64,000 nt of DNA, from the NCBI RefSeq assembly GCF_001428895.1, contig NZ_LMJA01000028.1, positions 67,972 to 131,971 of the forward strand. The letters are read 5' to 3'. The notes under the pieces were generated by a model, which was given only the letters and a program-made list of their open reading frames with translations, made no database searches and had not been told where the DNA came from. This DNA is from Mycobacterium sp. Root265 (GTDB lineage: Bacteria > Actinomycetota > Actinomycetes > Mycobacteriales > Mycobacteriaceae). Below are positions 1 through 15,107 of this stretch, piece after piece. Position 1 is the stretch's first letter; every line of letters starts with the position of its first letter. Both the position numbers and the translations under genes were made by a program.

Positions 1-640
1 ACACCGCCTCGGCCACCGAGTGGGTCACCAGCACGACGGTGGTTCCGGTCTCACGCCAGATGCGGTGCAACTCGACGTTCATCTTCTCCCGGGTGAGCGC
101 GTCGAGCGCACCGAACGGTTCGTCCATCAGCAACACACCGGGCTCGTGCAACAGCGCGCGGCACAGCGAAACACGTTGCTGCATACCACCGGACAGCTCG
201 TGCGGCAGGGCGTTCTCGAATCCGGTGAGCCCGGTCATCTCGATCAGGTAGTCGCAGCGGGCCTGGGCGGCCTTGCGGGGCATGCCGCGCATCTCGGCCT
301 GCAGCAGGATGTTGCGGCGCACCGAGCGCCACTCCAGCAGGGCGGCCCGCTGGAAGACGTAGCCGATCTCGCGCTGCGGGCCGCGCACCGCCTTGCCGCG
401 GAGCCGGACATCGCCGGAGGTGGCGTCGGTCAGACCGGCCACCACCTTGAGCAGTGTCGATTTGCCGCAGCCGGAGGGCCCTGCGATGGAGACGAATTCA
501 CCGTCGGTGACCCGCAGGCTGACGTTGTCGACGGCGGTCACGGTGGACCGTTTCGACGAGAAGGTCACGGTGAGGTTGTCGATGGTGATGGCGTCGGAGG
601 TCACGGTGGTCCTCGGTGCGGTGATGGTTGCGGAGGTCAT
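1..640 (-). CDS. ABC transporter ATP-binding protein (nitrate/sulfonate/NMT1-type), partial
   Basis: This is the cytoplasmic ATPase of the importer whose lipoprotein and permease lie just upstream. The reading frame starts at the ATG complementary to 638-640 and runs off the window, so the C-terminus is missing. About 213 residues are visible. They include Walker A (GPSGCGKST), the Q-loop (GYVFQRAALLEW), the signature motif (LSGGMQQRV), Walker B (LLMDEPFGALD) and the switch histidine (VTHSVAEAV). The YVFQ and DEPFGALDA motifs are typical of the TauB/SsuB/NrtD group rather than sugar-importer ATPases. It is the last visible gene of the permease-lipoprotein-ATPase operon, 11 bp after the lipoprotein gene. 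The substrate cannot be read from this subunit. Confidence 0.93.
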   Translation of the reverse strand, partial: MTSATITAPRTTVTSDAITIDNLTVTFSSKRSTVTAVDNVSLRVTDGEFVSIAGPSGCGKSTLLKVVAGLTDATSGDVRLRGKAVRGPQREIGYVFQRAALLEWRSVRRNILLQAEMRGMPRKAAQARCDYLIEMTGLTGFENALPHELSGGMQQRVSLCRALLHEPGVLLMDEPFGALDALTREKMNVELHRIWRETGTTVVLVTHSVAEAV

Positions 641-651
641 GGTGGGTTTCC

Positions 652-1695
652 CTATTCTCCGGCCGCGGGAACGAACGAGGAGGCCCAGTAGTCGGCCGGG
701 GCCTTGTTGGACGTGAGCAGGCCCGCCTCGTTCAGCGTGGCGATGGTCGAGGTCCAGTCCTCATCGGCGTTGGTGCCGGGGGCCTTACCGGTGGTGGCCG
801 GCGTGGTCAGCAGCGGAATGGTCTCCTGCCACTGCTGCAGCAGGACGTGCTCGGGCGGGGTCTGCGGATCCACGCCGACCATGGCCTTCGCCGCGGCCTC
901 GGGGTCTTCCTTGGCCGCCGCATAGGAAGCGCTGACGGCGTCGAGCATCGACTGGACCAGTTCGGGCTTGTCGCTGATCGTCGAATTGTGGGTGATCAGA
1001 CCGTTGCTGAAGAAGTTCAGGCCGGCATCGGAGTAGCGGAAGTAGCGCATCTCCCGTCCGCTCTTGTTGGCGATCGTCGGGCCCTGGTCGTGGGCGAAGC
1101 CGATCAGCCCGTCCACCCGGCCGGCCATCAGCGCGGCCATCTTGCCCGCGGAGTCCAGGTTCTGCTCCTTGACATCGCCGGGCGCCAGGCCGACGTCGGC
1201 GAGGAACATCGGGAAGGTGGTGGTGGGGGCGTCGCCGGCCGAGACGGCGATGGTGCGCCCGGCCAGGTCGGCCGGTTCCTCGATGCCGGAGTCGGCGAAG
1301 ACCTGCACCGCCGAGGGGGTGGTCTGCAGGAACACCCCGACACTCTTGATGTCGACGCCCTGGTCGATATTGCTCAGCACCGCGGCGGTGTCGGACCAGC
1401 CGAAGTCGACCTGCTTGCCGCCGACCGCCTGGGCGGTGCGGGTGGAGCCCTGCCCGGGATCGATGGTCAGGTCGATACCGTGCTCGGCAAAGATGCCCTC
1501 CTGCACGCCGTAGTAAAGCGGGGCGTGCTCACCGTAGGGATACCAGTTGAGCATCAGCGTGACCGGTGTCGTGCCTTCGGCGCCCTCGGCGGCCGAGTTG
1601 TTCTCGCCTGCACCTCCGCCGCCACAGGCGGCCAGGGTGAGAATGGCGGTGGTCGCGGCGACCGCGGTGGTGACGCGACGGCTGAATGAAAACAT
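652..1695 (-). CDS. ABC transporter substrate-binding lipoprotein, NMT1/THI5 family
   Basis: A 347-residue extracytoplasmic binding lipoprotein. The ATG at 1695 was chosen because it gives a full lipoprotein signal, RR at 6-7, a hydrophobic core and lipobox LAAC with Cys24, followed by a Gly-rich linker. Longer in-frame extensions upstream only shadow the permease gene. The mature protein opens with LMLNWYPYGEHAPLYYG, the hallmark of NMT1/THI5-like domains, whose members bind thiamine-pyrimidine precursors, riboflavin, sulfonates or other small organic ligands. Mid-protein it has PADLAGRTIAVSAGD, also family-typical. It is the middle gene of the importer operon. A palindromic LacI-type operator upstream of the operon ties it to the divergent catabolic genes. 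The ligand is unknown. Confidence 0.9.
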   Translation of the reverse strand: MFSFSRRVTTAVAATTAILTLAACGGGGAGENNSAAEGAEGTTPVTLMLNWYPYGEHAPLYYGVQEGIFAEHGIDLTIDPGQGSTRTAQAVGGKQVDFGWSDTAAVLSNIDQGVDIKSVGVFLQTTPSAVQVFADSGIEEPADLAGRTIAVSAGDAPTTTFPMFLADVGLAPGDVKEQNLDSAGKMAALMAGRVDGLIGFAHDQGPTIANKSGREMRYFRYSDAGLNFFSNGLITHNSTISDKPELVQSMLDAVSASYAAAKEDPEAAAKAMVGVDPQTPPEHVLLQQWQETIPLLTTPATTGKAPGTNADEDWTSTIATLNEAGLLTSNKAPADYWASSFVPAAGE

Positions 1696-1724: not shown

Positions 1725-2600
1725 TCAGACCGCGGTGGAGGCGGAGTTGGAGGTCCGGCGTGAGGCGTGCCAGGGGATGAGGAGCTTCTCGGCGATCTCG
1801 ATGATCGCGAACAACACGATCCCGAGCAGCGACATGATGATCAGCGCGGCGAAAAGCATTGCGGTGTCCAGGCTTCCGTTGGCCTGCAGAATGACGTAGC
1901 CGAGACCTTCGTTGGCGCCCACGAATTCGCCGACCACCGCACCGGTGACGGCCAGGGTGGCGGCCACCTTGAGCCCGGACATCAGCTGCGGCAGCGAGGC
2001 GGGGAAGCGGACCTTCATGAAGGTCCGGAACTTGCTGGCACCCATGGTCGAGGTGAGTTCCAGGATCTCCGGGTCCACCGAACGCAGGCCGGCCAGCCCG
2101 GAGATGACGATGGGGAAGAAGGCCATCAGCACGGCGACCAGGATCTTGGGGGAGGGGCCGAAACCGAGCCACACGATGAACAGTGGTGCGATGGCGATCT
2201 TCGGAATCACCTGGGCGAACAGGATGAGCGGGTAGACGGTCTTCTCGAAGCTCGACGAGTAGATCATCATCACCGCGAAGAAGATGCCGACCACGGTGGC
2301 GATGACGAAGCCGATCACCGTCTCCCAGGTGGTCACCCAGGTGTTCTGGGCGAGGTAGGCGGCGTTCTGCTGTGCCGCCGCCCAGGTGTCTCCGGGGGAC
2401 GGCAGGATGTAGGGCGCGACGAGTTCGGCCTCGGTGGCGGCCCACCAGCCGGCCAGGAGCGCGACGACCAGCACGACGGGTCGCCACAGGTTGGCCGCGG
2501 TGCGGCGCGGGGAGAAGGACCAACGTGCTCGTGGGGGTGCCGGCCGGGAGGCCGGGCCGGAGTCCGGTGACTGGACGCGGGCCGATGCGGTGACCGCCAT
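1725..2600 (-). CDS. ABC transporter permease (SsuC/TauC/ThiX-like)
   Basis: A 291-residue integral membrane permease and the first gene of the importer operon. After about 40 hydrophilic residues there are about six membrane segments, beginning with WRPVVLVVALLAGWWAA. The EAA loop that contacts the ATPase is visible as ELTSTMGASKFRTFMKVRFPA. The family is BPD_transp_1 of the nitrate/sulfonate/NMT1 type, usually 250-290 residues. The lipoprotein gene follows after 29 bp. The start at 2600 lies 48 bp downstream of the palindrome at 2649-2662, which recurs exactly in front of the catabolic operon at 3952, so the importer is probably co-regulated with it by the LacI protein. Confidence 0.92.
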   Translation of the reverse strand: MAVTASARVQSPDSGPASRPAPPRARWSFSPRRTAANLWRPVVLVVALLAGWWAATEAELVAPYILPSPGDTWAAAQQNAAYLAQNTWVTTWETVIGFVIATVVGIFFAVMMIYSSSFEKTVYPLILFAQVIPKIAIAPLFIVWLGFGPSPKILVAVLMAFFPIVISGLAGLRSVDPEILELTSTMGASKFRTFMKVRFPASLPQLMSGLKVAATLAVTGAVVGEFVGANEGLGYVILQANGSLDTAMLFAALIIMSLLGIVLFAIIEIAEKLLIPWHASRRTSNSASTAV

Positions 2601-2648
2601 GGATTGTCCTCAAGGTCGCAGTGGAACGGGTCTGATGTCCACCCGTTG

Positions 2649-2662
2649 GGAATGCGCTTTCC
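2649..2662. promoter_or_regulatory. Predicted LacI-family operator, importer side
   Basis: GGAATGCGCTTTCC, the exact reverse complement of the 14-mer at 3829-3842. Six of its seven base pairs are symmetric around a central CG, as in LacI-family operators. It sits between the divergent permease gene (start 2600) and the end of the lacI-type gene (2735). Confidence 0.7.
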
Positions 2663-2734
2663 GAAGCGAATCCGACACTAACGTGACCTGGCGCACACTG
2701 TCAACCAAGAGGTGACCCGTGCCTGAAGATCCAC

Positions 2735-3766
2735 TCAGCCAAGGCGCGTGCTGTCCCGCAGCACGATCCGCCCCGGGATCCGTTCCCGCAGGTCATCGGC
2801 ATCGGTGTCGATACGCAACGCCAATTCGACTGCGCGCGCGCCGATCTCCTCCAGCGGCAGCGCGACCGTGGTCAGGCTGGGGGTGTGGTCGCGCAGTGTC
2901 GGGATGTCGTCGAAACCGGCGATGCACACGTCGCGCGGCACGCTGAGGCCCTGCTCGCGCCAGGCGGCGATGGCCCCGATGGCCATCACGTCGGTGACCG
3001 CGAACACGCAGACCGGTTCGCGGGTGCCGCCGGGGCTGAGGTCGAGCGCGGCAGCGAGCCGGCGGGCGGCGGAATGGCCCCCGTCGCGGGTGAAGTCTCC
3101 GGACACCTCCACCAGCGTGGTCAGCCCGTGTCTGCCCAGCGCCTCGGTGAAACCGTTGCGGCGGTCCACCGAGGTCCGGATGTTTCCGGGCCCGCCGATC
3201 ACGGCGAACTGCCGGTGCCCGGCGGCCACCAGTGCATCGGCCAATTCGCTTGAGGCAAAGTGATTTTCCGGCTCGACGGCGCCGCCGAAGGCCAGTGGCT
3301 GCCCGATCACGACCACCCGCCCGCCGTTGGCGCGGTAGTGGCCGAACTCGGCTTCGAGTTCGCGGTCCAGGTCGCCGCTCTGCCGGGAGCCCGCGAGCAC
3401 GATGGCGTCGGCGCGGTGGGCGATGAAGGTGCTGACGGATTCCCGCTCGATGTCAAAGTCGCGGTCGGTGCCGGCCAGCAGCACCTGCTTGCGGGCGGCG
3501 CGGGCGGCGGACTGCACACCGCGCGCGATCGAGGAGAAGTACGGGTCGGCGATATCGTGCACGATCAGCCCGAGTAATCCGGTGGAGGCCCGCGCCAACG
3601 CCTGTGCCTGCGCGTTCGGCACATAGCCGAGCTCACGCGCCGCGGTGCGCACCCGATCGGCAACCCCCTCGCCGGGAACCCGATTCGAGCCGTTGAGCAC
3701 GCGTGATGCGGTGGCCTGGGAGACCCCGGCCCGCGTTGCCACGTCCAGCAGAGTGACCGCCGCCAT
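2735..3766 (-). CDS. LacI-family transcriptional regulator
   Basis: A 343-residue repressor. The N-terminal helix-turn-helix reads TLLDVATRAGVSQATASRVLNG (residues about 4-25), with the hinge AQALARASTGLLGLIV after it. A periplasmic-binding-protein-like effector domain follows, containing DIADPYFSSIARGVQ and FDDIPTLRDHTPSLTTV. The ATG at 3766 was chosen because the HTH begins at once and a GGGAG lies just upstream; the longer frame reading to 3961 would cross the operator. It lies between the importer operon and the divergent catabolic operon, and identical palindromes precede both. It therefore most likely represses both until the substrate or an intermediate binds. The effector is unknown. 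Confidence 0.93.
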   Translation of the reverse strand: MAAVTLLDVATRAGVSQATASRVLNGSNRVPGEGVADRVRTAARELGYVPNAQAQALARASTGLLGLIVHDIADPYFSSIARGVQSAARAARKQVLLAGTDRDFDIERESVSTFIAHRADAIVLAGSRQSGDLDRELEAEFGHYRANGGRVVVIGQPLAFGGAVEPENHFASSELADALVAAGHRQFAVIGGPGNIRTSVDRRNGFTEALGRHGLTTLVEVSGDFTRDGGHSAARRLAAALDLSPGGTREPVCVFAVTDVMAIGAIAAWREQGLSVPRDVCIAGFDDIPTLRDHTPSLTTVALPLEEIGARAVELALRIDTDADDLRERIPGRIVLRDSTRLG

Positions 3767-3828
3767 GCCCGCTCCCGCCCTTGTCGCCGAACCCCGGGGT
3801 TGACCGGAGCGCTCGCACAGCTTACCTT

Positions 3829-3842
3829 GGAAAGCGCATTCC
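3829..3842. promoter_or_regulatory. Predicted LacI-family operator, catabolic operon side
   Basis: GGAAAGCGCATTCC, identical (inverted) to 2649-2662. It lies in the 185-bp gap between the divergent lacI-type gene (start 3766) and the dehydrogenase gene (start 3952). It could therefore control both the catabolic operon and the regulator itself. Confidence 0.72.
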
Positions 3843-3951
3843 GAAGTGCTGACGGCGCCGCCGACTCCGTGACGAGTTCGGTGGGGGCGCCGGATCCCCT
3901 GTTCGCAACGTCCCGATAAGACGCCGTCTTCATCAGACAAGGAATTCGCAC

Positions 3952-5118
3952 ATGCCTGCATCTCCCGAAACGCCTCGCCGCACGCTGCGCATCGCCATGA
4001 ACGGCGTGACCGGCCGGATGGGCTACCGCCAGCACCTGCTGCGCTCCATCCTCCCGTTGCGCGAGACCGGCCTGCTGCTCGAAGACGGCACCCGTGTCGA
4101 CGTGGAGCCGATCCTCGTCGGGCGCAACGCCGAGAAGATCGCCGACCTCGCCGCCGAGCACGGCATCGACGCCTGGACCACCGACACCGCCTCCGTGATC
4201 GCCGACCCGACCGTCGACGTGTACTTCGACGCGCAGGTCACCTCGCGGCGGATGGAGGCGCTCTCCGGCGCCATCAAGGCCGGCAAGCACGTCTACACGG
4301 AGAAACCGACGGCCGAAACGCTCACCGAGGCAATCGAACTCGCTCGTATGGCGGAGAACGCCGGGGTGGTGGCCGGGGTGGTACACGACAAGCTGTACCT
4401 GCCGGGTCTGGTCAAACTGCGCAGACTCATCGACGAAGGCTTCTTCGGGCGCATCCTGTCGATGCGCGGCGAGTTCGGCTACTGGGTGTTCGAGGGCGAC
4501 GGCCAGCCCGCCCAGCGGCCCAGCTGGAACTACCGCGCCGAGGACGGCGGCGGTATCACCGTCGACATGTTCTGCCACTGGAACTACGTGATGGAGGGCC
4601 TGCTCGGCACCGTGCAGTCGGTGACCGCGCGCACCGCCACCCACATCCCGACCCGCTGGGACGAGCAGGGCAACGCCTACAAGGCGACCGCCGACGACGC
4701 CGCCTACGGCATCTTCGAGATCGAAGGCGGCGTCATCGCCCAGATCAACTCATCCTGGGCGGTCCGGGTACACCGCGACGAACTCGTCGAGTTCCAGATC
4801 GACGGCACGCACGGCTCGGCGGTCGCCGGGTTGCGCGGCTGCGTGGCACAGCAACGTGCCCACACCCCGAAACCGGTGTGGAATCCCGACCTTCCGGTCA
4901 CCGAGAAATTCCGCGACCAGTGGCTCGACGTCCCGGCCAACGCCGACCTCGACAACGGCTTCAAATTGCAGTGGGAGGAATACCTGCGCGATGTCGTCGC
5001 AGGACGGTCCCACCGTTTCGGCCTGCTGTCCGCCGCCCGCGGTGTGCAATTGGCCGAACTCGGCCTGCGCAGCTCCGTCGAAGGACGCCGCCTGGATGTC
5101 CCGGAGATCGTGCTGTGA
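3952..5118 (+). CDS. Gfo/Idh/MocA-family oxidoreductase
   Basis: A 388-residue cytoplasmic NAD(P)-dependent dehydrogenase, predicted to oxidise a sugar, polyol or sugar acid. The N-terminal Rossmann fold carries GVTGRMG near residues 19-25. The catalytic KHVYTEKPTA (EKP motif) is near residue 115 and a GGITVDMFCHWNY active-site segment near residue 203. Family members are usually 330-400 residues. It is the first gene of a four-gene operon in which every junction is a 4-bp stop-start overlap, so the four enzymes are probably made in fixed ratio. A LacI-type operator lies 110 bp upstream. The nearest functional subfamily is not recognisable from the sequence, so the substrate is left open. Confidence 0.9.
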   Translation: MPASPETPRRTLRIAMNGVTGRMGYRQHLLRSILPLRETGLLLEDGTRVDVEPILVGRNAEKIADLAAEHGIDAWTTDTASVIADPTVDVYFDAQVTSRRMEALSGAIKAGKHVYTEKPTAETLTEAIELARMAENAGVVAGVVHDKLYLPGLVKLRRLIDEGFFGRILSMRGEFGYWVFEGDGQPAQRPSWNYRAEDGGGITVDMFCHWNYVMEGLLGTVQSVTARTATHIPTRWDEQGNAYKATADDAAYGIFEIEGGVIAQINSSWAVRVHRDELVEFQIDGTHGSAVAGLRGCVAQQRAHTPKPVWNPDLPVTEKFRDQWLDVPANADLDNGFKLQWEEYLRDVVAGRSHRFGLLSAARGVQLAELGLRSSVEGRRLDVPEIVL

Positions 5119-6311
5119 CCGCCACGATCCGAGCCGGCGACACCGCGCTGCGGCTGCCGATCGACGGTGCGCTGCGTACCCACGTCCTGGGTGAGCCCGG
5201 TCCGTGGCGGCGGCCCGGCGGTCCGATCACCTCCCGGATCGCTTACGCGGCAGCCCATGTCGTTCCCAAGGCCACCGCCGACAGCAGCCCCGGCGCGCCC
5301 GCCGACCTGGACTGGGACATCACCATGGCCTACCGCCACGAGCTGTGGTCCTACGGACTGGGCGTGGCCGACGCGATGGACACCGCGCAACGCGGGATGG
5401 GACTGGACTGGGCCGCCACCCGCGAGCTGATCGCGCGCAGCGGCCGGGAAGCCGCCGCGGTGGGCGGACGGCTCTCCTGCGGCGCCGGTACCGACCAGCT
5501 GGTCACTGCCGACCTCCCGGCCGGGGCGGCGGGGCTGGCCGCCATCACCGATGCCTACCGGGCGCAGATCGAGGTGGTGCGCGACGCGGGTGCCCAGGTG
5601 ATCCTGATGGCCTCCCGGGCCCTGGCCACGGTTGCCGAGTCACCAGCGGACTATCTGTCGGTGTACGGCACGCTGCTCGCAGAGGTGGACCGACCGGTGA
5701 TCCTGCACTGGCTGGGGGACATGTTCGACCCGGCGCTGCGCGGCTACTGGGGCAGTGCCGATATCGACTCGGCGACAGCAACCTTCCGCGAGCTCATCGA
5801 AACCCACGCCGACAAGGTCGACGGCGTCAAGGTGTCGCTGCTGGACGCAGGACACGAGGTGGCGTTGCGCCGCGCGCTGCCCGCCGGGGTCCGGCTCTAC
5901 ACCGGAGACGATTTCAACTATCCCGAGCTGATCATCGGTGACCAGGCCGGGCATTCGGATGCCCTGCTGGGCATCTTCGCCGCCATCTACCCCGCGGCCT
6001 CGACCGCCCTGCAGGAACTCGATGCCGGTGACAGTGCGCGGGCGCACGAGATCCTGGCGTCCACCCAGGAACTGGGCAGGCACATCTTCGCCGCGCCGAC
6101 CTATTACTACAAGACCGGGATCGCCTTCCTGTCCTGGCTCAACGGTCACCAGCCCGGGTTCTCGATGGTCAACGGACTGGCGTCCGGCCGGTCGGTGGGG
6201 CACCTGTGCCGGCTCTTCGTGCTCGCCGACCGTGCCGGCCTGCTCGCCGATCCCGCGCTGGCCGCCGCGCGGATGCGCACCTATCTCGCACTGAACGGAG
6301 TCCACGGATGA
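5115..6311 (+). CDS. DUF993 family protein (DHDPS-like TIM barrel), predicted aldolase or lyase
   Basis: A 398-residue protein of the DUF993 family, which belongs to the dihydrodipicolinate-synthase-like TIM barrels. The GTG start at 5115 overlaps the preceding stop (GTGA); the longer in-frame reading from 4878 only shadows the dehydrogenase. Visible segments include LDWDITMAYRHELWSYGLGVADAMDT, TDAYRAQIEVVRDAGAQVILMASRAL, RPVILHWLGDMFDP, KVDGVKVSLLD and TGDDFNYPELI. The VDGVKVS lysine is placed like the Schiff-base lysine of DHDPS/NAL aldolases, so a retro-aldol or dehydratase role on the product of the preceding dehydrogenase is plausible. That is inference; to my knowledge no biochemical function is established for the family. 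Confidence 0.82.
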   Translation: MTATIRAGDTALRLPIDGALRTHVLGEPGPWRRPGGPITSRIAYAAAHVVPKATADSSPGAPADLDWDITMAYRHELWSYGLGVADAMDTAQRGMGLDWAATRELIARSGREAAAVGGRLSCGAGTDQLVTADLPAGAAGLAAITDAYRAQIEVVRDAGAQVILMASRALATVAESPADYLSVYGTLLAEVDRPVILHWLGDMFDPALRGYWGSADIDSATATFRELIETHADKVDGVKVSLLDAGHEVALRRALPAGVRLYTGDDFNYPELIIGDQAGHSDALLGIFAAIYPAASTALQELDAGDSARAHEILASTQELGRHIFAAPTYYYKTGIAFLSWLNGHQPGFSMVNGLASGRSVGHLCRLFVLADRAGLLADPALAAARMRTYLALNGVHG

Positions 6312-7138
6312 GCGCAACCTTCGCGCGGTTGTCACTGAACACCATGACGACGAAGTCCTGGAACCTGCGCCAGGCGGTCGAGGCGACCGCGGCGGCCGGC
6401 CTGCCCGCGATCGGGTTGTGGCGCGACAGGGTCGCCGAGGCCGGTGTGGACGAAGCGGCGAAGCTGGTACGTGACAACGGTCTTCGGGTGTCCAGCCTGT
6501 GCCGCGGCGGGTTCCTCACCGGAGTCGGGGACGGTGAGGCCGCACTCGCGGACAATCGCCGGGCCATCGATGAAGCCGCCACCCTGGGCGCACCGGAGCT
6601 GATCATGGTCGCCGGCGGCATCCCCGATCGCGATCTGCCCGGTGCGCGCGCCCGGTTGGCCGACCGGTTGGCCGCATTGGTTCCGTACGCCGCCGAGCGC
6701 GACGTGCGACTGGCGCTGGAGCCCCTGCATCCGGTGTTCTGCGCCGACCGTGCGGTGATCTCGACGCTGGGTCAGGCGCTGGCACTGGCCGCACCGCACC
6801 CGGCCACCGCGGTAGGGGTGGTTGTGGACACCTTCCACGTCTGGTGGGATCCGGATCTGGCGACGGGGATCGCGGCCGCCGGCGCGCAGGGCCGCATCAG
6901 TTCCTTCCAGATCTGCGACTGGCTGGTCCCGATGGCCGCCGACCCGCTGGTATCCCGCGGGATGATGGGCGACGGCGTCATCGACTTCGGCGCTGTCGCC
7001 GCACTGGTGACCGCCGCCGGGTACGACGGCGATATCGAGGTGGAGATCTTCAACGAGGAGGTCTGGGCGACCGACGGTCACACCGTGCTGGACACCATGA
7101 AGAACAGGTACCGCGACCTGGTGCTGCCCGGGCTGTGA
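6308..7138 (+). CDS. Sugar phosphate isomerase/epimerase-like TIM-barrel protein
   Basis: A 276-residue AP-endonuclease-2/xylose-isomerase-like TIM barrel. The ATG at 6308 overlaps the previous stop (ATGA). Metal-ligand segments of this superfamily are visible: LALEPLHP (Glu and His), VVDTFHVWWDP (Asp, His), SSFQICDW and DIEVEIFNEEVW (C-terminal Glu). Relatives include IolE/IolI, hydroxypyruvate isomerase and the KguE group, so it probably isomerises or epimerises a keto-sugar or keto-acid intermediate, or removes a labile one. It is the third gene of the coupled operon, between the DUF993 protein and glycerate kinase. The exact substrate is not predictable. Confidence 0.88.
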   Translation: MSATFARLSLNTMTTKSWNLRQAVEATAAAGLPAIGLWRDRVAEAGVDEAAKLVRDNGLRVSSLCRGGFLTGVGDGEAALADNRRAIDEAATLGAPELIMVAGGIPDRDLPGARARLADRLAALVPYAAERDVRLALEPLHPVFCADRAVISTLGQALALAAPHPATAVGVVVDTFHVWWDPDLATGIAAAGAQGRISSFQICDWLVPMAADPLVSRGMMGDGVIDFGAVAALVTAAGYDGDIEVEIFNEEVWATDGHTVLDTMKNRYRDLVLPGL

Positions 7139-8238
7139 AGGTCCTGATCGCCCCGGACTCGTTCAAGGGGACCGCCTCGGCCACCGAGGTGGCCGAGGCG
7201 CTCGCCCAGGGTTGGTCGGGGGTGTACCCCCATGATCACGTCATCGCACTGCCACAGGCCGATGGCGGCGAGGGCACGCTGGAAGCGGTTGCGGCGTCGG
7301 GGGTTTGGCGGTGGCACCAGAGCGAGGTCGACGGCCCGGACGGCCGGCCGGTGTCCGCACGCTGGCTTCTCGACCACGACGGGCAACGCGCCGTCATCGA
7401 GCTTGCCGAACCCTCCGGGATCGCGTTGCTGGACCGGCTGGAACCCTGGCGGGCCGACACCCACGGACTGGGCCGGCTCATCGGCACCGCGCTGGCCGCC
7501 GGTGTCCGGTCGGTGCAGATCGGGCTGGGCGGCTCGGCCAGTACCGACGGCGGTGCCGGCGCCCTGATGGCGCTGGGTCTCAAGGCCTTCGATGTGTCGG
7601 GCCGACCGATCGACCGTGGGGCGCACGGACTTCGCACCGTCGCATACGTCGACACCGACGGCCTGGCCCCGCTGCCCCCGGACGGTGTCGAGTTGCTGGT
7701 CGACACCGCGGCCCCGCTGCGTGGCCCACAGGGTGCCGCGGCGGTGTTCGGGCCGCAGAAGGGTGCGACACCGGCCGACGTCGAGCAGCTCGATGACGGC
7801 CTCATCCGGTGGGCCCGGATCCTGAATGCCGCAGGCCTGGAAGCCGACCCGGGCACCCCCGGCGCCGGCGCGGCCGGTGGTGCGGGCTTCGGCCTGATGG
7901 CCTGGGGTGCCGCAGCGACATCCGGTGCACAGCGCATCGCGGAACTCACCGGCCTGGAGGCCCAACTCGCGACGGCCGACCTGGTGCTCACCGGGGAGGG
8001 ACGTTTCGACGGCACTTCATGGACCGGCAAGCTCGTCGGCCACGTACTTGACGCGGCCGCCCGCCACGAGGTGCCCGCCGTGGTGGTGGCCGGGCAGGTC
8101 GCGGCGCGATGCGAAGTGCCGACGGTGTCCCTCACCGATATCGCGGGGTCGCCGGGGGCCGCGATGACCGACCCGCTGCACTGGCTGCGCGCAGCGGGTT
8201 CGGTGGCGGCGCGACGATTCGCCGGGACGATTCAGTAG
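7135..8238 (+). CDS. Glycerate kinase (GarK/GlxK type)
   Basis: A 367-residue kinase of the glycerate kinase type I family, which makes 2-phosphoglycerate from D-glycerate and ATP and so feeds glycolysis. The GTG at 7135 overlaps the preceding stop (GTGA). Family motifs are [19 protein letters not shown] at the N-terminus, [19 protein letters not shown] near residue 130 and [19 protein letters not shown] near residue 285. It is the last gene of the LacI-controlled operon. Its presence is the strongest hint that the upstream enzymes release glycerate. Its 3' end overlaps the 3' end of the convergent deoC by 7 bp. Confidence 0.93.
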
Positions 8239-8921
8239 CCCGACCCGGCCTCGCCACCGGCCGACGACAACAGCGCCCGAGACCCGGACACACCGAGCCG
8301 GGTGGCACCGGCGGCGATCATCGCGCGTGCCTGCTCGAGCGTGCGCACCCCGCCCGAGGCCTTCACGGCCAGTCCCGCATCGGCGACCGTGCGGTGCATC
8401 AGTTCCACGGCGTGCACGGTGGCACCGCCGGAGGGATGGAAGCCGGTCGAGGTCTTGACGAAATCGGCACCCGCGGCGACCGCTGCCCGGCAGACACCCA
8501 CGATCTCGTCGTCGGTCAGGGCGGCCGATTCGATGATCACCTTGAGCACCACCGGAGCGGGTGCGGCCGCGCGCACCGCGGCGATATCGGATTGCACCAG
8601 GTCGAAAGCACCGGCCTTGGCGGCGCCGATGTCGATGACCATGTCGATCTCGTCGGCGCCGTTGGCCAGCGCCTCGGCCGCCTCGGCGGCCTTTACCGCC
8701 GAGGTGTGCTTTCCGCTCGGGAAGCCGCACACCACCGCGACTTTCAGGGTGTCGGGCACGGTGATCGGCAGCATGGACGGCGAGACACACACCGAGTAGG
8801 TGCCGAGCTCGGCGGCCTCGGCCACCACGGCGGCGACATCGGCGGCGGTGGCCTCGGGCTTGAGCAGGGTGTGGTCGATCATCGCGGCCACGTCGGCGGC
8901 GGTGTCGGTGGGCGTGCTCAT
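8232..8921 (-). CDS. deoC: Deoxyribose-phosphate aldolase family protein
   Basis: A 229-residue class I aldolase. DERA splits 2-deoxyribose 5-phosphate into glyceraldehyde 3-phosphate and acetaldehyde through a lysine Schiff base. Visible motifs are [57 protein letters not shown] (catalytic Lys) and [13 protein letters not shown] (second active-site Lys). Length is normal for DERA. It is the last gene of the polyol-type operon, 39 bp after the permease. In that context it may cleave a related ketose or deoxy-sugar phosphate made by the dehydrogenase and FGGY kinase rather than serve nucleoside salvage. This assignment of substrate is inference. Confidence 0.92.
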
Positions 8922-8960
8922 GAATTCCTCTGTTCTGTCGTACGTGGATGAAAGGGAGTG

Positions 8961-9965
8961 TCAGGCGGCGCTCTTGGACTGCCTGTCGATCAGGTAGTTC
9001 ATGATGAGCGCGGCGATCAGGATCAGACCGGTCACCAGCATCTGGAAGAACGAGCTCAGCCCGAGCAGGTTGAACAGGTTGCGCAACACCGACAGCAGTA
9101 GGACGGCGATGAACGTGCCGAGCACACCGCCCTTTCCGCCGAACAGACTGGTCCCGCCGAGCACCACCGCGGCGATCGCGTCGAGTTCCAGCCCGGTGTT
9201 CGCGGTCGGCTGACCGATGGTAAGCCGTGCGGTCAGCAACACGCCGGTGAGGGCCGCCAGCCCGCCGCAGATGACATAGGCCGCGGTGGTGATGCGCTGC
9301 ACCGGCAGGCCGGACAGGCGCGCGGCCTGCGCGTTGCTGCCCACCGCGTAGATGTGTTCACCGAAGGTGGTGCGGCGCAGCACGAATCCGACGATGAGTG
9401 CCGTCGCGACGAAGATGACGCCGACCACCGGGATGCCGGCGATGGAGCCCGCGCCCAGGAACCGCAGGCCCATCGGGATTTCGGCGGTCGTGGGCGTGCC
9501 GTTGGTGGTCAGGTAGGTCATGCCCCGGATGCTCTGCATCCCGGCCAGGGTCACCATGAAAGCCGGCAGCACCAGATACGCGCTGAGACCGCCCATCACG
9601 CCGCCGAGCACCAGACCCGATCCGATCGCCAGGGCCATGGCCACCGGCCAGGGCAGTCCGATGCCGATGAAGATCGCCACCAGCATCCCGGACAGTGCCG
9701 CGACGCTGCCCACCGACAGGTCGATGCCCGATGTCAGGATCACCACGGTCATACCGATCGCGACGATGCCGGTGAGACTGGACTGCTGCAGCAGGTTGGC
9801 CATGTTCTGGGTGGTGAGGAACTGCGGTGCGGACACCGAGGCCACCACGAACAGTGCGATGAAGATGAACAGCAGGTTGAAGCGCATGATGATGCCGCGC
9901 CGCTGGCTCTTCGGTGTGGCGGCCGCCGGTTCAGGGGTGGCGGCGCGGTCGATCAGATCAGTCAT
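8961..9965 (-). CDS. Sugar ABC transporter permease (RbsC-like)
   Basis: A 334-residue membrane permease of the ribose/galactose/AI-2 importer group (BPD_transp_2). It has about eight to ten hydrophobic segments after a short cytoplasmic N-terminus. Family motifs include TSGIDLSVGSVAALSGM, YLVLPAFMVTLAGM, AVGSNAQAARLSG and ELDAIAAVVLGGTSLFGG. The start overlaps the end of the RbsA-like ATPase gene by 8 bp, so the two are translationally coupled. With only one permease gene present, it probably works as a homodimer, unlike the LsrC/LsrD pair. It belongs to the seven-gene SorC-controlled operon. Confidence 0.93.
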   Translation of the reverse strand: MTDLIDRAATPEPAAATPKSQRRGIIMRFNLLFIFIALFVVASVSAPQFLTTQNMANLLQQSSLTGIVAIGMTVVILTSGIDLSVGSVAALSGMLVAIFIGIGLPWPVAMALAIGSGLVLGGVMGGLSAYLVLPAFMVTLAGMQSIRGMTYLTTNGTPTTAEIPMGLRFLGAGSIAGIPVVGVIFVATALIVGFVLRRTTFGEHIYAVGSNAQAARLSGLPVQRITTAAYVICGGLAALTGVLLTARLTIGQPTANTGLELDAIAAVVLGGTSLFGGKGGVLGTFIAVLLLSVLRNLFNLLGLSSFFQMLVTGLILIAALIMNYLIDRQSKSAA

Positions 9966-11439
9966 TGGCGTACTTCGTTCTTCCGGTGACGATGCAGCGG
10001 GCGATATCCGCTGAGGGGGTGGTCAGGGGCTCGTACTGGGCAATGTTGAGTCCCTCGTGCAGAACCCAGATCCGATTGCAGTTCTCGGTGAGTTCACTCA
10101 GTTCGCTCGATGCCATCAGCACACCGACGCCCGCATCGGCGAGCGCATGGACCTGTTCGAAGAGGTCGGCCTTGGCGCCGATGTCCAGACCGCGGGTGGG
10201 CTCGTCCAGCAGCAGCAGGTCGATCCCGCGCGCCATCCACTTGGCGAGCACCACCTTCTGCTGGTTGCCGCCGGAGAGCTGGCCCACGGGCTGGTCGACG
10301 CTGGCAAATTTGACCCCCAGCCGGGTCAGCGGAGGGTGGCACACCTCGCGGGCCCGGGCCATCGGGTTGATCCGGAACGGTTTGAGCGCCGCGATCGCGG
10401 CATTGCGCAGAATGGACTGCTCCAGGAACAGGCCCTGCCGTTTGCGGTCCTCGGGCACCAGTCCGATACCGAGCCCGACGGCGGTCCGTGGCGTCAGTGA
10501 CACGATCTGCTGATCGCCCAGCGTCATGTCGAGTTCGGCCTTACGGTCACCGAAGATGGTGGCCAGCAAGGTGGATCGGCCGGCTCCGCCCAGGCCGGCG
10601 AGACCCACGATCTCACCGCGACCCACGGTGATGTCGCGGATGTCGATCACGCCGGGGATGCTGGCCCGACGCACGTGCAAGAGCGGGCCGGACCCGGGGC
10701 TGTGCCGCCGGGGCGGACGAACCTGCACGGCGCGGCCGATCATCGACTCGACGAGTTCCTCCTTGGTCACCGAGGCGATGTCGAACACACCCACCGTGGC
10801 GCCGTCACGCATGACGGTGGCCCGGTCACCGATCTCCTTCACCTCGTCGAGCCGGTGTGAGATGTAGATGACCGACTTTCCGGCCGCGGTGAGTTCGCGG
10901 ATGACCCGGAACACCGCCGCCAGATCGTGATCGGTGAGGGTGGCGCTGGGCTCGTCCATCACCACGATGCGGGCATCGGTGGTGAGTGCCTTGGCGATCG
11001 CGGTGAGCTGCTGATCCGATACCGACAGTTCGCCGACGACGGCGGTCGGGGAGAAGATGCCGCCGACCCGCGCGATCGCCTCGGCGGCACGCTCGTCGCG
11101 TTCCCTGCGGTTGACCAACGGGCCCCGACGCGGTTCGTGGCCGAGGAACAGGTTCTGCGCGACCGTCAGGTCGGGCACCAGGTCCAGCTCCTGGTAGATG
11201 GTGTTGATCCCGGCGCGCACCCCGTCGATCGGCGAGGTGAACGTCATGGGCTTCCCGCCCAGGGTGATGGTCCCGGAATCGGCTGTGTAGGAACCGGAAA
11301 GGATCTTCATCATGGTGCTCTTGCCTGCGCCGTTCTCGCCGAGCAGGCAGTGCACCTCACCCTGGGAGACCTGCAGGCTCGCGCCGTCACAGGCCTTGGT
11401 GCCGGGAAAGGCCTTGACGATATCGGTCATCGTCAGCAT
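9958..11439 (-). CDS. Sugar ABC transporter ATP-binding protein (RbsA-like, two ABC domains)
   Basis: A 493-residue double ATPase of the CUT2 sugar-importer class. Domain 1 carries Walker A GENGAGKST (about residue 34), signature LSVSDQQ and Walker B IVVMDEPSATL. Domain 2 carries the degenerate Walker A GLGGAGRST, signature LSGGNQQKVVLAKWM and LLLLDEPTRGLDIGAK. The Lys-to-Arg change in the second Walker A is normal for this family, so it is not a sign of damage. The gene lies between the SorC regulator (1 bp gap) and the permease (8-bp overlap). It energises uptake of the ligand captured by the RbsB-like lipoprotein at 15108. Confidence 0.94.
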   Translation of the reverse strand: MLTMTDIVKAFPGTKACDGASLQVSQGEVHCLLGENGAGKSTMMKILSGSYTADSGTITLGGKPMTFTSPIDGVRAGINTIYQELDLVPDLTVAQNLFLGHEPRRGPLVNRRERDERAAEAIARVGGIFSPTAVVGELSVSDQQLTAIAKALTTDARIVVMDEPSATLTDHDLAAVFRVIRELTAAGKSVIYISHRLDEVKEIGDRATVMRDGATVGVFDIASVTKEELVESMIGRAVQVRPPRRHSPGSGPLLHVRRASIPGVIDIRDITVGRGEIVGLAGLGGAGRSTLLATIFGDRKAELDMTLGDQQIVSLTPRTAVGLGIGLVPEDRKRQGLFLEQSILRNAAIAALKPFRINPMARAREVCHPPLTRLGVKFASVDQPVGQLSGGNQQKVVLAKWMARGIDLLLLDEPTRGLDIGAKADLFEQVHALADAGVGVLMASSELSELTENCNRIWVLHEGLNIAQYEPLTTPSADIARCIVTGRTKYAND

Positions 11440-11440
11440 G

Positions 11441-12412
11441 TCATGCCTCCAATGCCTCGGCGGTGCTGTGCTCCAGCACTGCGTTCACGGTGGGTTCGTC
11501 GGTGATCAGCACGGTGCACAACCCGCTGCGCAGCGCCGCGCGCACCACCGCAACCTTGTTCGGGCCTGCCGCGACGGCGATGGCGCATTTGGCGTTCCTG
11601 ACGTCATCGAGACCCAATCCCACTGTCCTGCTGTCGATATCCGGATGAGCGATCTCACCGTCGGCGGTGAGGTAGTGGGCCAGGATGTCCCCGCAGGCGC
11701 CTCGCGCCTCGAGCTCACGCAGTTCGGCGGGGGTCACCGCGCCGGACTCCACCAGCACCGAGGTCGGCCCCGGGGCGCCGAGTGAGAACAGCAGCGCGTC
11801 GGCCTGGCGGGCACCGGTGAGCACGTCACCGACAAAGCCCTCGGCGTAGAGCGCGTCGCGGGTCTCGATGCGTTCCACGATCGCCGGCACCGGGAGCAGG
11901 GTGGCGCGCCCGTTTCCGCTGTGCGCGATGCTGGTGGCGATGTTGGCCGCGGTGGTGGGGCGCACCGACCGGCTCACCCCGCCGTTGGCCTGGATGACCT
12001 CGATGCCGCTGGTCCATCCGGCCGGCAGTACGGCGGCGATGTGCTGCAACGTGTTTCCCCACGAGACGGCCAGCGTGGAGATGCCTGACGAGTTGGCCTG
12101 CAGATAGCCGGCGGCCGCCGCGGCGATGTGGGTGTCGGAGCCCGGCGACTCCGGTCCCGGGACCACGATGCATTCGCGCAGCCCGAACTCGCTGCGCATG
12201 GCGACCTCGAGCTGGGTGCGGCGGGCCTGCGGGTGCACGATCCTGATCTGCACGATGCCCACCTCGCGGGCCTCGTCGAGCAGCCTGCCCACCTTCCACC
12301 GGGTCAGGTGCAGTTCGCGGCCGATGTCCTCCTGGGTGCGGCCCTGCTCGTAGTAGTGCTGGGCCACGTGCAGCATGAGTTCGACGTGGCTCTTCTCGTG
12401 GGGTTGGGACAT
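11441..12412 (-). CDS. SorC-family transcriptional regulator (LsrR/EryD/DeoR-like)
   Basis: A 323-residue regulator. The N-terminal HTH reads YYEQGRTQEDIGRELHLTRWKVGRLLDEAREVGIVQIRI, and a large sugar-phosphate-binding domain follows with SWGNTLQHIAAVLP and QANGGVSRSVRPTTAANIA. SorC proteins sense phosphorylated sugars or polyols and usually control the operon that encodes them. The gene is inside that operon, sharing one base with the FGGY kinase stop. A perfect 20-bp palindrome, CTTTGCTCATATGAGCAAAG, lies 91 bp upstream of the first gene and is the likely operator. The kinase product is the natural candidate effector; this is inference. Confidence 0.93.
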   Translation of the reverse strand: MSQPHEKSHVELMLHVAQHYYEQGRTQEDIGRELHLTRWKVGRLLDEAREVGIVQIRIVHPQARRTQLEVAMRSEFGLRECIVVPGPESPGSDTHIAAAAAGYLQANSSGISTLAVSWGNTLQHIAAVLPAGWTSGIEVIQANGGVSRSVRPTTAANIATSIAHSGNGRATLLPVPAIVERIETRDALYAEGFVGDVLTGARQADALLFSLGAPGPTSVLVESGAVTPAELRELEARGACGDILAHYLTADGEIAHPDIDSRTVGLGLDDVRNAKCAIAVAAGPNKVAVVRAALRSGLCTVLITDEPTVNAVLEHSTAEALEA

Positions 12413-13965
12413 CAGCTCGGAACCCCCGTCGGAGCCGCGACCGGAACTCCGGCCAACCGGTCGGCACTGTCATGCATGAATGGCTGCAGAATCGCCGTCA
12501 GCCGTTGGTAGTCCTCGAAGGTGCCCTGATACAACGCGATCCGGTCCGGATCGGGTTCGATCAGCCGGACCTTCGGGGCGAAGAGCTGTGCGCCGTCGTG
12601 CAGCGAACCGGCGACGCCGGCCGCGGTGGCGGCAATGACCGCGCAAGCCCGAAGTGTCAGGTTCTCCCCGACGACGAGCTCGGCGGGCCGGCCGAGGACA
12701 TCCACGGTGACCTGCTGCCACAGCGGGTTCCGCTCGATACCTCCGGAGAACACCAGTCGTTCACACGACACTCCGGACCGCTCGAAGGAGTCGATGACGC
12801 TGCGGGTACCGCAGGCCACCGCCTCGACCATGGCGCGATACAACTCGGCCCTGGTGGTGCCCAGCGACAACCCCACCACGGCGCCGCGCAGCCGTGCCTC
12901 CCGGTACGGAGTGCGGTTACCCATGAAGTAGTCCAGCGCGCGTAGGCCGTGCGCGGCCGGATCGACCAGGGCGGCCTCATCGATGAGCGTCGACAGCTCG
13001 CCGCGGGGGACACCCATCACCGACTCGCCGGTCCACTTCAGCACCGAACCGCTGGTGACCTGCCCGCCCTCCACCAGCCACTTGTTCTGGCGCAACGCCC
13101 TCGGGTACGGGCCCCAGATCTCGTTCGTGCTGGTCGGCACGTCGATCTCGGCGGTGATCGCCGAGGAGGTGCCCGCGACTACGGAGACGAGCCCGTTCAG
13201 TTCACCTCCGCACGCCAGCAGGGAGACGTGCGCGTCGATACCGCCGACGGCGATGACCGGACGGGCGGTGATGCCGAGTTCGGTTGCGGCGGAGGCGGAC
13301 AGCGTGCCCGCGACACCCCCGACCTCGACGATGCGGTCGGGCAGCTTGTCGGCCAGATCCTGCACTCCCAGCGCGGCATACAACTCGACGGGCAGCCGCC
13401 CGGCGATCGGGTCGTAGTTGTACTTGCAGACGGCGTTCATCTGGGAGCCGACCCACTGGCCGGTGAGCCGGAACGTCACATAGTCGACGGCCTCGACGAT
13501 CCGTGCCGCGCGGTCGTAGTTGTCCGGGTCGTGCGCCCGCAGCCACATCGCCTTGGGCACCAGCCACTCCGCGGCATCCGAGCCGCCCGACCATTCCAGG
13601 ATCGGGTGGTCCGGTGCGAGCTGCGCGGTGCGCTCGGACTCCGCGCCGCTGCGGCAGTCCATCCACAGGATCGCCGGGCGCAGCGGTTCACCGGCGGCGT
13701 CGAGCACCGCCACGGTGGACGCGGTCGTCGCGGCGGCGATGGCGACGACCTCGCCGGCACGCCTGCACTCGTCGGAGCTCAGCAATTGGCGGGTGGCCGC
13801 GGTGATGGCCGCCCACCAGTCCCGCGGATCCTGTTCGGCCCAGCCCGGTCTGGGGAACCGTGTCTGGTACGGGCGGTGGGCGGTGCCCAGCGCGCGGCCG
13901 TCCTCGGTGAAGGCCCCGACCCGGGCACCCTCGGTGCCGAGATCGATCGACAGCAGAATTCCCAT
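12412..13965 (-). CDS. FGGY-family carbohydrate kinase
   Basis: A 517-residue sugar kinase of the FGGY fold (gluconate, xylulose, ribulose, erythritol and AI-2 kinases). The N-terminal phosphate motif is LLSIDLGTEGARVGAF. Mid-protein are WMDCRSGAESERTA and EAVDYVTFRLTG. The catalytic region is VGGIDAHVSLLACGG and the C-terminal signature FSGGIERNPLWQQVTVDVLGRPAE. Length suits ribulokinase-like and erythritol-kinase-like members. It lies between the dehydrogenase and the regulator, so it presumably phosphorylates either the imported polyol or the ketose made from it. Substrate specificity within FGGY is hard to read and is left open. Confidence 0.9.
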   Translation of the reverse strand: MGILLSIDLGTEGARVGAFTEDGRALGTAHRPYQTRFPRPGWAEQDPRDWWAAITAATRQLLSSDECRRAGEVVAIAAATTASTVAVLDAAGEPLRPAILWMDCRSGAESERTAQLAPDHPILEWSGGSDAAEWLVPKAMWLRAHDPDNYDRAARIVEAVDYVTFRLTGQWVGSQMNAVCKYNYDPIAGRLPVELYAALGVQDLADKLPDRIVEVGGVAGTLSASAATELGITARPVIAVGGIDAHVSLLACGGELNGLVSVVAGTSSAITAEIDVPTSTNEIWGPYPRALRQNKWLVEGGQVTSGSVLKWTGESVMGVPRGELSTLIDEAALVDPAAHGLRALDYFMGNRTPYREARLRGAVVGLSLGTTRAELYRAMVEAVACGTRSVIDSFERSGVSCERLVFSGGIERNPLWQQVTVDVLGRPAELVVGENLTLRACAVIAATAAGVAGSLHDGAQLFAPKVRLIEPDPDRIALYQGTFEDYQRLTAILQPFMHDSADRLAGVPVAAPTGVPS

Positions 13966-13967
13966 GC

Positions 13968-15056
13968 TCAGTCCTCGTTGGGTAGGAAGAGCACCTTCGA
14001 GGAGAAGATCGAACGCTCACCCAGTTGTTGCATGGTCCGCGGAAGTTCCGACAGCGGTAGCTCGTGGGTGATCATGAACTCCCACTCGAGTTGCCCGGTG
14101 GCCATCATCTTGGCCGATGTCCGCCACTCGTCGCCGGGAAACGGCGCAGAGAACGAGTTCCACGATCCGTGCAGTGTGGCCTCCTGCCGCATGAATTGGT
14201 TGAACGTCTCCTTGCCGAGCGGTACGGGTGCGTGCGGGATACCGATGAACACGGCATGGCCGTGCGGCCCGGTCAGGTTGGCGGCCATATCGGCGGTCGC
14301 CGGCACACCGGCGGATTCCAGCACGATGTCGAATCCGCGCCCGCCCAGTGCGCGGGCTTCCTCGGCGCCCTGGACCGCGGCCCCGGCACCGGCCTGGCGC
14401 GCCATGGCCGCCTTCTCTTCGCTGAGGTCGACCGCGACGACCTCGGTGGCGCCGTGCAACCGGGCCCACTGCACGGCGAAAAGCCCGATCGGGCCGGCAC
14501 CGATGACGAGTACCCGGTGCCCGGCCCGCAGGCCGGTTTTCCACAATCCGTGCAGAGCGATCGCGGCCGGGTCGAGCATGGCCGCCGCCCGCGGGTCGAT
14601 ACCGGCGGGCATCTTGAGCAGGTTGCCCACCGGCGACACCGTGTACTGCGCGTAGGCACCGTCGCAGCGGCTACCGAAGTAGTCGTAGTTCTCGCACAAC
14701 CCGAACGCACCCTTGAGGCAGTAATCGCATGTGCGGCAGGGGATCAGCGGCGGCACCGAGACCAGTTCGCCGATCTCGAAACCTGTGACACCGTCCCCGA
14801 GTTCGACCACCCAGCCGGAGAACTCGTGGCCGCAGATGATCGGCATGATGTAGCCACCGTTGCGCAGCATGCGCGGGATGTCGGACCCGCAGACCCCGCA
14901 GGCGGCGATCTTGAGCAGAACCTGGCCGGGCCCCGGGCGGGGCACCGCGACCTGTTCGACCCGGATGTCACCGGGTGCGTGCATCACGGCGGCGGTCATC
15001 GTCTGGGGAAGGGTCTCCCGGGTGGACAGATCCCGGGTGGGCGCTTCGGTTGTCAT
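13968..15056 (-). CDS. Zinc-dependent polyol dehydrogenase (GatD-like MDR family)
   Basis: A 362-residue medium-chain dehydrogenase. Catalytic-zinc residues lie in CGVCGSD and CGHEFSG. The structural zinc site is the four-cysteine stretch CRTCDYCLKGAFGLC. The nucleotide-binding loop is VLVIGAGPIGLFAVQWARL, with a downstream acidic residue that favours NAD. The C-terminal GSWNSFSAPFPGDEW block strongly resembles galactitol-1-phosphate 5-dehydrogenases. This supports a polyol, or polyol phosphate, oxidised to a ketose. It is the second gene of the operon, 51 bp after the binding protein. Sorbitol/xylitol-type dehydrogenase is an alternative label. Confidence 0.9.
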   Translation of the reverse strand: MTTEAPTRDLSTRETLPQTMTAAVMHAPGDIRVEQVAVPRPGPGQVLLKIAACGVCGSDIPRMLRNGGYIMPIICGHEFSGWVVELGDGVTGFEIGELVSVPPLIPCRTCDYCLKGAFGLCENYDYFGSRCDGAYAQYTVSPVGNLLKMPAGIDPRAAAMLDPAAIALHGLWKTGLRAGHRVLVIGAGPIGLFAVQWARLHGATEVVAVDLSEEKAAMARQAGAGAAVQGAEEARALGGRGFDIVLESAGVPATADMAANLTGPHGHAVFIGIPHAPVPLGKETFNQFMRQEATLHGSWNSFSAPFPGDEWRTSAKMMATGQLEWEFMITHELPLSELPRTMQQLGERSIFSSKVLFLPNED

Positions 15057-15107
15057 GAGGTGATGGCTCCTGAGGTGCTTCGTGGAAAGGGGGTGGCGGT
15101 GCGTGGA

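Follow-up and report, generated by a model that had tools for sequence, protein, structure and literature searches.

Gene cluster around a DUF993 protein in Mycobacterium sp. Root265: a candidate route from a sugar or sugar acid to glycerate

Proteins of the DUF993 family are highly conserved and one of them has a solved structure; we found no reaction assigned to them in the literature. One such protein is encoded in a 64,000-nucleotide stretch of DNA from the soil actinobacterium Mycobacterium sp. Root265 (contig NZ_LMJA01000028.1, positions 67,972 to 131,971; hereafter the window), at a locus spanning positions 2649 (an operator) to 8238 (the end of a glycerate kinase gene). The evidence tips slightly towards the following scheme, taken as a whole, for the uptake and breakdown of a sugar or sugar acid by a LacI-controlled unit. 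An NMT1-type ATP-binding cassette (ABC) importer would bring the compound in and a Gfo/Idh dehydrogenase would oxidise a secondary alcohol to a ketone. A metal-dependent barrel would isomerise or epimerise the keto-intermediate, to be split by the DUF993 protein acting as a divergent class I (Schiff-base) aldolase of the dihydrodipicolinate synthase (DHDPS) superfamily. A three-carbon fragment would then give D-glycerate, which the kinase would convert into 2-phosphoglycerate, an entry into glycolysis. We infer from sequence every one of these reactions, their order and the substrate. Three of the genes, those for Gfo/Idh, DUF993 and the barrel, make up the conserved core, and comparable gene sets recur across several bacterial phyla. 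The features of the locus are as follows.

2..640, minus strand: ABC importer ATPase, extending beyond the window start (whole in the genome, 271 codons with the stop)
652..1695, minus strand: NMT1/THI5-type solute-binding lipoprotein (PF09084, E 4e-44)
1725..2600, minus strand: ABC importer permease (PF00528, E 6e-32)
2649..2662, no strand: putative operator copy 1, GGAATGCGCTTTCC, upstream of the importer operon
2735..3766, minus strand: LacI-family regulator (PF00356, PF13377)
3829..3842, no strand: putative operator copy 2, GGAATGCGCTTTCC reversed, between lacI and the catabolic operon
3952..5118, plus strand: Gfo/Idh/MocA dehydrogenase (PF01408, PF22725)
5115..6311, plus strand: DUF993 protein, proposed divergent class I aldolase (PF06187)
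6308..7138, plus strand: xylose-isomerase-like TIM barrel (AP_endonuc_2, PF01261), proposed isomerase or epimerase
7135..8238, plus strand: glycerate 2-kinase, GarK type (PF02595; TIGR00045 304.3 bits, cut-off 168.45)

The four catabolic genes are joined, at every junction, by a 4-bp overlap of stop and start, and their best Pfam E-values are 1e-24 (Gfo/Idh), 3e-180 (DUF993), 6e-35 (barrel) and 3e-102 (kinase). The initial annotation had described a four-gene operon with such overlaps, a LacI regulator and an NMT1-type importer, a description that coordinates and Pfam matches bear out. In the genome, the gene beyond the importer ATPase lies on the opposite strand. A promoter and terminator scan of positions 2500-8600 gave nothing above chance.

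Conservation of the core is best seen in a survey of 81 loci, the window and the best 80 of at least 596 confirmed relatives, using our own gene caller and BLASTP labels; some of these loci end early at contig edges. The Gfo/Idh gene stands directly upstream of DUF993 in 79/81 and the barrel directly downstream in 81/81, under 29-30 genus-level labels, with 4-bp overlaps at 57 of 79 Gfo-DUF993 and 67 of 81 DUF993-barrel junctions. One of the two exceptions, L103, has its Gfo gene in two pieces farther upstream. The other is a Gemmatimonadetes metagenome contig in which Gfo and DUF993 form a single open frame of 793 residues (L085:8783-11164); coming from a metagenome assembly, this fusion may be a sequencing error. 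Upstream of it lie an open reading frame 28% identical to a GMC oxidoreductase and one that looks MFS-like by eye. Within seven genes of DUF993 the 81 loci hold 453 gene families, core and singletons counted, of which 103 are shared by at least two loci. A short-chain dehydrogenase takes the place of Gfo directly upstream of DUF993 in seven proteobacterial loci, as would fit a required oxidation. Among sampled genomes, DUF993 itself is present in 29/396 of the window's phylum, counting a borderline match and some partial ones, and in 17/148 of its genus. It also occurs in 147 plasmid records, of which Sinorhizobium or Rhizobium account for 88. Viral contigs yielded one partial relative. Ribose-type ABC, RbsD and PfkB genes seen near DUF993 in Streptomyces were taken as neighbouring operons rather than as parts of the unit.

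The window protein is a clear member of DUF993 (PF06187 599.5 bits, cut-off 24). An hhalign comparison of 90 DUF993 with 34 DHDPS sequences gave a probability of 95.8% (E 8e-9) over 231 columns, against 0.4-2.9% for four control pairs, and a lysine invariant in 90/90 DUF993 sequences, K239, aligns with the region of the Schiff-base lysine of DapA. The earlier view of the protein as DHDPS-like is borne out by this profile match and by the invariance of K239 at the Schiff-base position; a TIM-barrel fold would likewise follow from the profile comparison. In the superfamily of DHDPS and N-acetylneuraminate lyase (PF00701), GxxGE is the carboxylate-binding motif and a YxxP strand carries the catalytic tyrosine. 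The GxxGE stretch reads MDTAQR in DUF993 (M88, D89, T90, Q92 and R93 in 90/90) and the tyrosine strand ILHWLG (H198 and W199 in 90/90, the local alignment being gapped there), and because both motifs are missing the chemistry may differ from that of DHDPS. DUF993 proteins are in addition about 100 residues longer. An earlier and shallower profile comparison drew on five DHDPS sequences and fell short of significance, and none of 17 DUF993 members matched PF00701 significantly (best E 0.17). DUF993 is a distant member of the superfamily, keeping the lysine at the Schiff-base position without the usual pyruvate-binding motifs. This pattern may suit a Schiff-base enzyme whose substrate has no carboxylate beside its ketone, as in a dihydroxyacetone-type donor. 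A distant relative (L029:1462-2418), barely above the cut-off at 24.7 bits against 24, retains both the lysine and the MDT motif and by itself gives a match to the DHDPS profile; it is a possible bridge between the two families.

The other two core proteins keep the residues expected of active enzymes. The Gfo protein is close to the solved 3oqb (E 1e-137), with weak similarity to levoglucosan dehydrogenase and DgpA; K118 of its EKP motif and D205 and H209 of D-x3-H, to which we presume functional roles, are invariant in 88 sequences. The barrel has 7vpf, 3ju2 and 3qc0 as solved relatives, its PDB matches include ketose 3-epimerases, and E138, D174, H177 and E246, presumably residues with a metal role, are invariant in 98 sequences. 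The solved proteins 4dnh (DUF993, labelled uncharacterised), 3oqb, 3ju2 and 3qc0 are full-length relatives whose records come without assigned function. The IolO epimerase is the best NCBIfam match of the Sinorhizobium meliloti and Erwinia barrels, far below cut-off; for that of S. meliloti it is the only one at E 1e-5 or better (E 1e-8). The enzymes of myo-inositol and 5-keto-gluconate (IolG, IolO) resemble the core in joining a Gfo family member to an AP_endonuc_2 epimerase, but all model matches stay far below their cut-offs.

The fourth gene is that of the kinase. A kinase relative lies within seven genes of DUF993 in 6/81 loci (the window, L051, L070, L074, L087 and L091), at three different positions. 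Leaving the window out, 5/80 loci have one, where the kinase density of the window's genome would predict 0.72; the Poisson P is 0.0009 if loci are taken to be independent and that one genome to be typical. Spread over six genera, the kinase is the widest neighbour family after the core and LacI; four others reach five genera, and the families found in five include the three importer genes. A further 23 regions were fetched from the plasmid collection, picked for annotation and variety and not at random, one of them without annotation. Among the annotated ones, DUF993 has a glycerate kinase nearby in 9/20 proteobacterial regions, in agreement with a tblastn search of these regions, and in both actinobacterial regions, those of pAO1 and Glaciihabitans. 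The nine proteobacterial kinases form one family, 43-63% identical to that of L135 (the two examined with Pfam are of MOFRL type), and show no similarity to eight GarK-type kinases (hhalign probability 0.2%). In Paracoccus yeei, for example, the window's order Gfo-DUF993-barrel-kinase is found with an unrelated kinase. Mapped onto a tree built from 90 DUF993 proteins, the presence of a kinase switches at least 14 times; it is scored in 17/90, a figure slightly inflated because loci with short flanks were retained only if they bore a kinase. The tie between kinase and DUF993 that was first noticed in the window thus does recur, in many lineages and with two unrelated kinase families. This recurrent linkage provides the best indication that glycerate or a similar compound is made, and a DUF993 cleavage ending in glycerate is plausible.

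Control of the unit can be followed through its operators. Without mismatch, the 14-mer GGAATGCGCTTTCC occurs in the window only at 2649-2662 and, reversed, at 3829-3842. Allowing up to three mismatches gave 8 matches for 5.75 expected and a looser operator pattern 8 for 5.96, both at chance level, so the operator claim rests on the perfect copies. Over the whole genome (6.67 Mb), GGAAWGCGCWTTCC with at most one mismatch was found at four places, the two perfect copies of the locus and two sites with one mismatch, as compared with one place for the reversed control pattern. Both one-mismatch sites fall within called coding regions, and a wider regulon was accordingly rejected. Paired operator sites are also present in L050-L054 (Mycolicibacterium, Nocardia, Rhodococcoides and Rhodococcus). 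More generally, in 70/78 loci the 300 bp upstream of Gfo contain an operator-like site, deviating from a degenerate form by no more than one mismatch, for 0.1 expected in shuffles; the eight loci lacking it include the kinase-bearing L070 and L087. Since the genome has no perfect operators besides these two, and L050-L054 repeat the pair, importer and catabolic operon of the window very likely form one regulon. The initial annotation had them share the regulator's operator: the common regulon stands, but not the single operator, each having its own copy with lacI between.

What the importer carries is less readily read from its type. The nearest solved structure to its binding protein is the pyrimidine-binding 3ix1, at E 2e-17 only, and the protein falls below the cut-offs of the NCBIfam SsuA/taurine binding-protein models (74.9 of 163.5 and 22.8 of 304.25 bits). 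Importer ATPase relatives lie near DUF993 in 7/81 loci, the window counted, and a related NMT1-type binding protein in 8/90 (the window, L050-L054, Micromonospora L087 and Chelatococcus L134). In the alphaproteobacterium Chelatococcus the identities to the window's proteins are 34% for the binding protein, 43% for the permease and 53% for the ATPase. Other DUF993 loci carry different transporters, of sugar-type ABC, TTT, TRAP or MFS families. As a case in point, the sugar-type binding protein of Peteryoungia matches 4r2b, reportedly solved with glucose, at E 9e-202 and the glucose-binding protein 2b3b at E 1e-38. The earlier argument that an NMT1-type importer points to a substrate other than a sugar is therefore not borne out: it fails because some sister loci have sugar-type ABC importers or TTT transporters.

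As to the reaction itself, our best guess is that DUF993 proteins would be keto-sugar-acid aldolases. A cleavage of 5-keto-hexonate into tartronate semialdehyde and dihydroxyacetone would fit the missing carboxylate motif of pyruvate type, and remains, in this exact form, unlikely. The broader proposal is tentative, and we rate it as doubtful, if less so than that one reaction: DUF993 might found a new family of class I aldolases, turning keto-aldonates into a glycerate precursor and a ketone such as dihydroxyacetone, as the core of a non-phosphorylating sugar-acid pathway in several phyla, which actinobacteria and proteobacteria would have joined to two unrelated glycerate kinases. Weak hints of keto-gluconate chemistry may be seen in the IolO-type epimerase matches, in a DkgB-like reductase (below its model cut-off) and in a gluconate 2-dehydrogenase subunit 3 found with a GMC oxidoreductase near one locus. 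The glucarate/galactarate and glyoxylate routes likewise have a GarK-type kinase feeding 2-phosphoglycerate. They end in GarK or GlxK, and their carbon-carbon enzyme, GarL or Gcl, is of other families than DUF993. Were the aldolase role true, many proteins that currently carry the label 'dihydrodipicolinate synthase family' would have to be renamed, and common soil bacteria would gain a sugar-acid route. Taken together, the operator, the three-gene core and the recurring kinases reduce the question to a handful of assays.

Beside the missing DHDPS motifs, the lack of a significant PF00701 match and the shallower profile comparison, a number of observations count against this scheme. No glycerate kinase was seen within seven genes of DUF993 in 75/81 loci, some of them limited by contig edges, or near DUF993 in 11/20 annotated proteobacterial plasmid loci, so the product may not be glycerate in every case. 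A fixed place for the kinase in the operon, such as the initial annotation had given it, is not supported by the survey of DUF993 neighbourhoods, but the kinase recurs in more genera than any non-core family bar LacI. The best model for the window's barrel is 3-dehydroshikimate dehydratase and not IolO. The S. meliloti 'gluconolactonase', about 9 kb from the DUF993 gene, matches no gluconolactonase model. In a search of 150 loci (47 of which have flanks of at most 1.5 kb), two tartronate-semialdehyde-reductase-like proteins, queries picked by eye, had no relatives outside the two loci from which they came, and a dihydroxyacetone kinase had relatives in 2/150, its own locus included; genes for the next steps thus show no recurrent linkage. 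Because of such short flanks, these reductase-like and kinase genes were dropped as evidence. Finally, the scheme leaves unexplained the genes for coenzyme A (CoA)-transferase, enoyl-CoA hydratase and acyl-CoA dehydrogenase of several proteobacterial clusters.

The nearest precedent is a cluster of plasmid pAO1 of Paenarthrobacter nicotinovorans, which lines up genes for Gfo, DUF993 and a kinase of GarK type, 76%, 68% and 41% identical to those of the window. It differs in having no barrel between them, a sugar-type ABC importer, GMC oxidoreductase and AldH genes, and a GntR gene nearby instead of LacI. We take it that these are the genes concerned in a report on xylose breakdown, and with this link the close identities would favour an oxidative pentose route, Gfo being a D-xylose dehydrogenase and DUF993 acting on keto-deoxy-xylonate. 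Such a route is improbable for the window: the motifs of pyruvate aldolases are missing in DUF993, the pAO1 region read (an incomplete table) has no gene annotated as a xylonate dehydratase and the window unit no match to such a family, and the AldH and GMC genes beside the pAO1 unit have no counterpart in that of the window. In print, a plasmid-encoded oxidative xylose pathway on pAO1 appears as a title in a reference list (PMC6305408), and the cluster may, to judge from that title, have been touched on with a different reading. The pathway had been put forward as undescribed, a claim to be qualified in view of this close relative. None of the papers searched mentions DUF993 or PF06187. Nor did literature searches find any paper combining 'dihydrodipicolinate synthase family', 'glycerate kinase' and 'Gfo', or anything on function for a Paenibacillus isomerase, pAO1, or the PDB codes 4dnh, 3oqb, 3ju2, 3qc0 and 7vpf. 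In a table of a 2025 regulation study, S. meliloti SMc04132 is listed as an uncharacterised protein and SMc04133 as a putative oxidoreductase (PMC12542648). Because of the gene order, and because 3ju2, found in the PDB comparison of the barrel, is SMc04130, we infer that SMc04132 is the S. meliloti DUF993 protein.

There are two further readings. About as improbable as the pentose route is a three-carbon-acid module modelled on gcl-hyi-glxR-glxK, in which DUF993 would make hydroxypyruvate or tartronate semialdehyde, the barrel interconvert them, Gfo reduce to glycerate and the kinase phosphorylate. The four roles could map one to one, and the barrel does match hydroxypyruvate isomerase, if weakly (E 3e-4; E 1.5e-6 for that of Erwinia; far below cut-off). 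It fits better, however, 3-dehydroshikimate dehydratase, the IolO epimerase and the ketose 3-epimerases of the PDB, and most loci retain Gfo and barrel with no kinase nearby. A 3-keto-glycoside route seems very improbable. Here a glycoside, for instance glucosylglycerate, would be oxidised at C3 by Gfo, the barrel would eliminate glycerate, and DUF993 would act on the remaining keto-sugar. Glycerate would thus be explained as the aglycone; the weak similarity of Gfo to levoglucosan dehydrogenase and DgpA, as well as GMC oxidoreductase relatives near DUF993 in at least 9/150 loci, goes in the same direction. Yet in pAO1 and Microvirga DUF993 lies beside a glycerate kinase and no barrel relative was found in the fetched region, so that the kinase tracks DUF993 rather than the barrel.

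Some minor features of these loci may be added. The plasmids of Roseateles, Paracoccus and Sinorhizobium (L153, L154 and L160) share one gene row, in which CoA-transferase, enoyl-CoA hydratase, a MOFRL-family kinase and acyl-CoA dehydrogenase are accompanied by a short-chain dehydrogenase, DUF993, the barrel and electron-transfer flavoproteins. Directly upstream of Gfo, L134, L137 and L161 encode a protein of 462, 465 and 477 residues, respectively, annotated as enolase or enolase-like; those of L134 and L137 had no Pfam match even at E 10. In the window, a second catabolic block (8232-16109, minus strand) lies directly downstream and convergent with the kinase gene. It comprises a DeoC aldolase, a CUT2-type permease and ATPase, a SorC-type sugar-binding regulator, an FGGY kinase, a zinc alcohol dehydrogenase and a Peripla_BP_4 binding protein, and looks like a separate sugar or polyol operon; it was considered as part of the DUF993 unit and set aside as a neighbouring operon. 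The whole block from importer to alcohol dehydrogenase (L195; window 1-21851) is flanked by apparent housekeeping genes, RbfA-like and NrnA-like open reading frames recognised by eye and TruB at 21914-22777, as if a catabolic island had been inserted between them.

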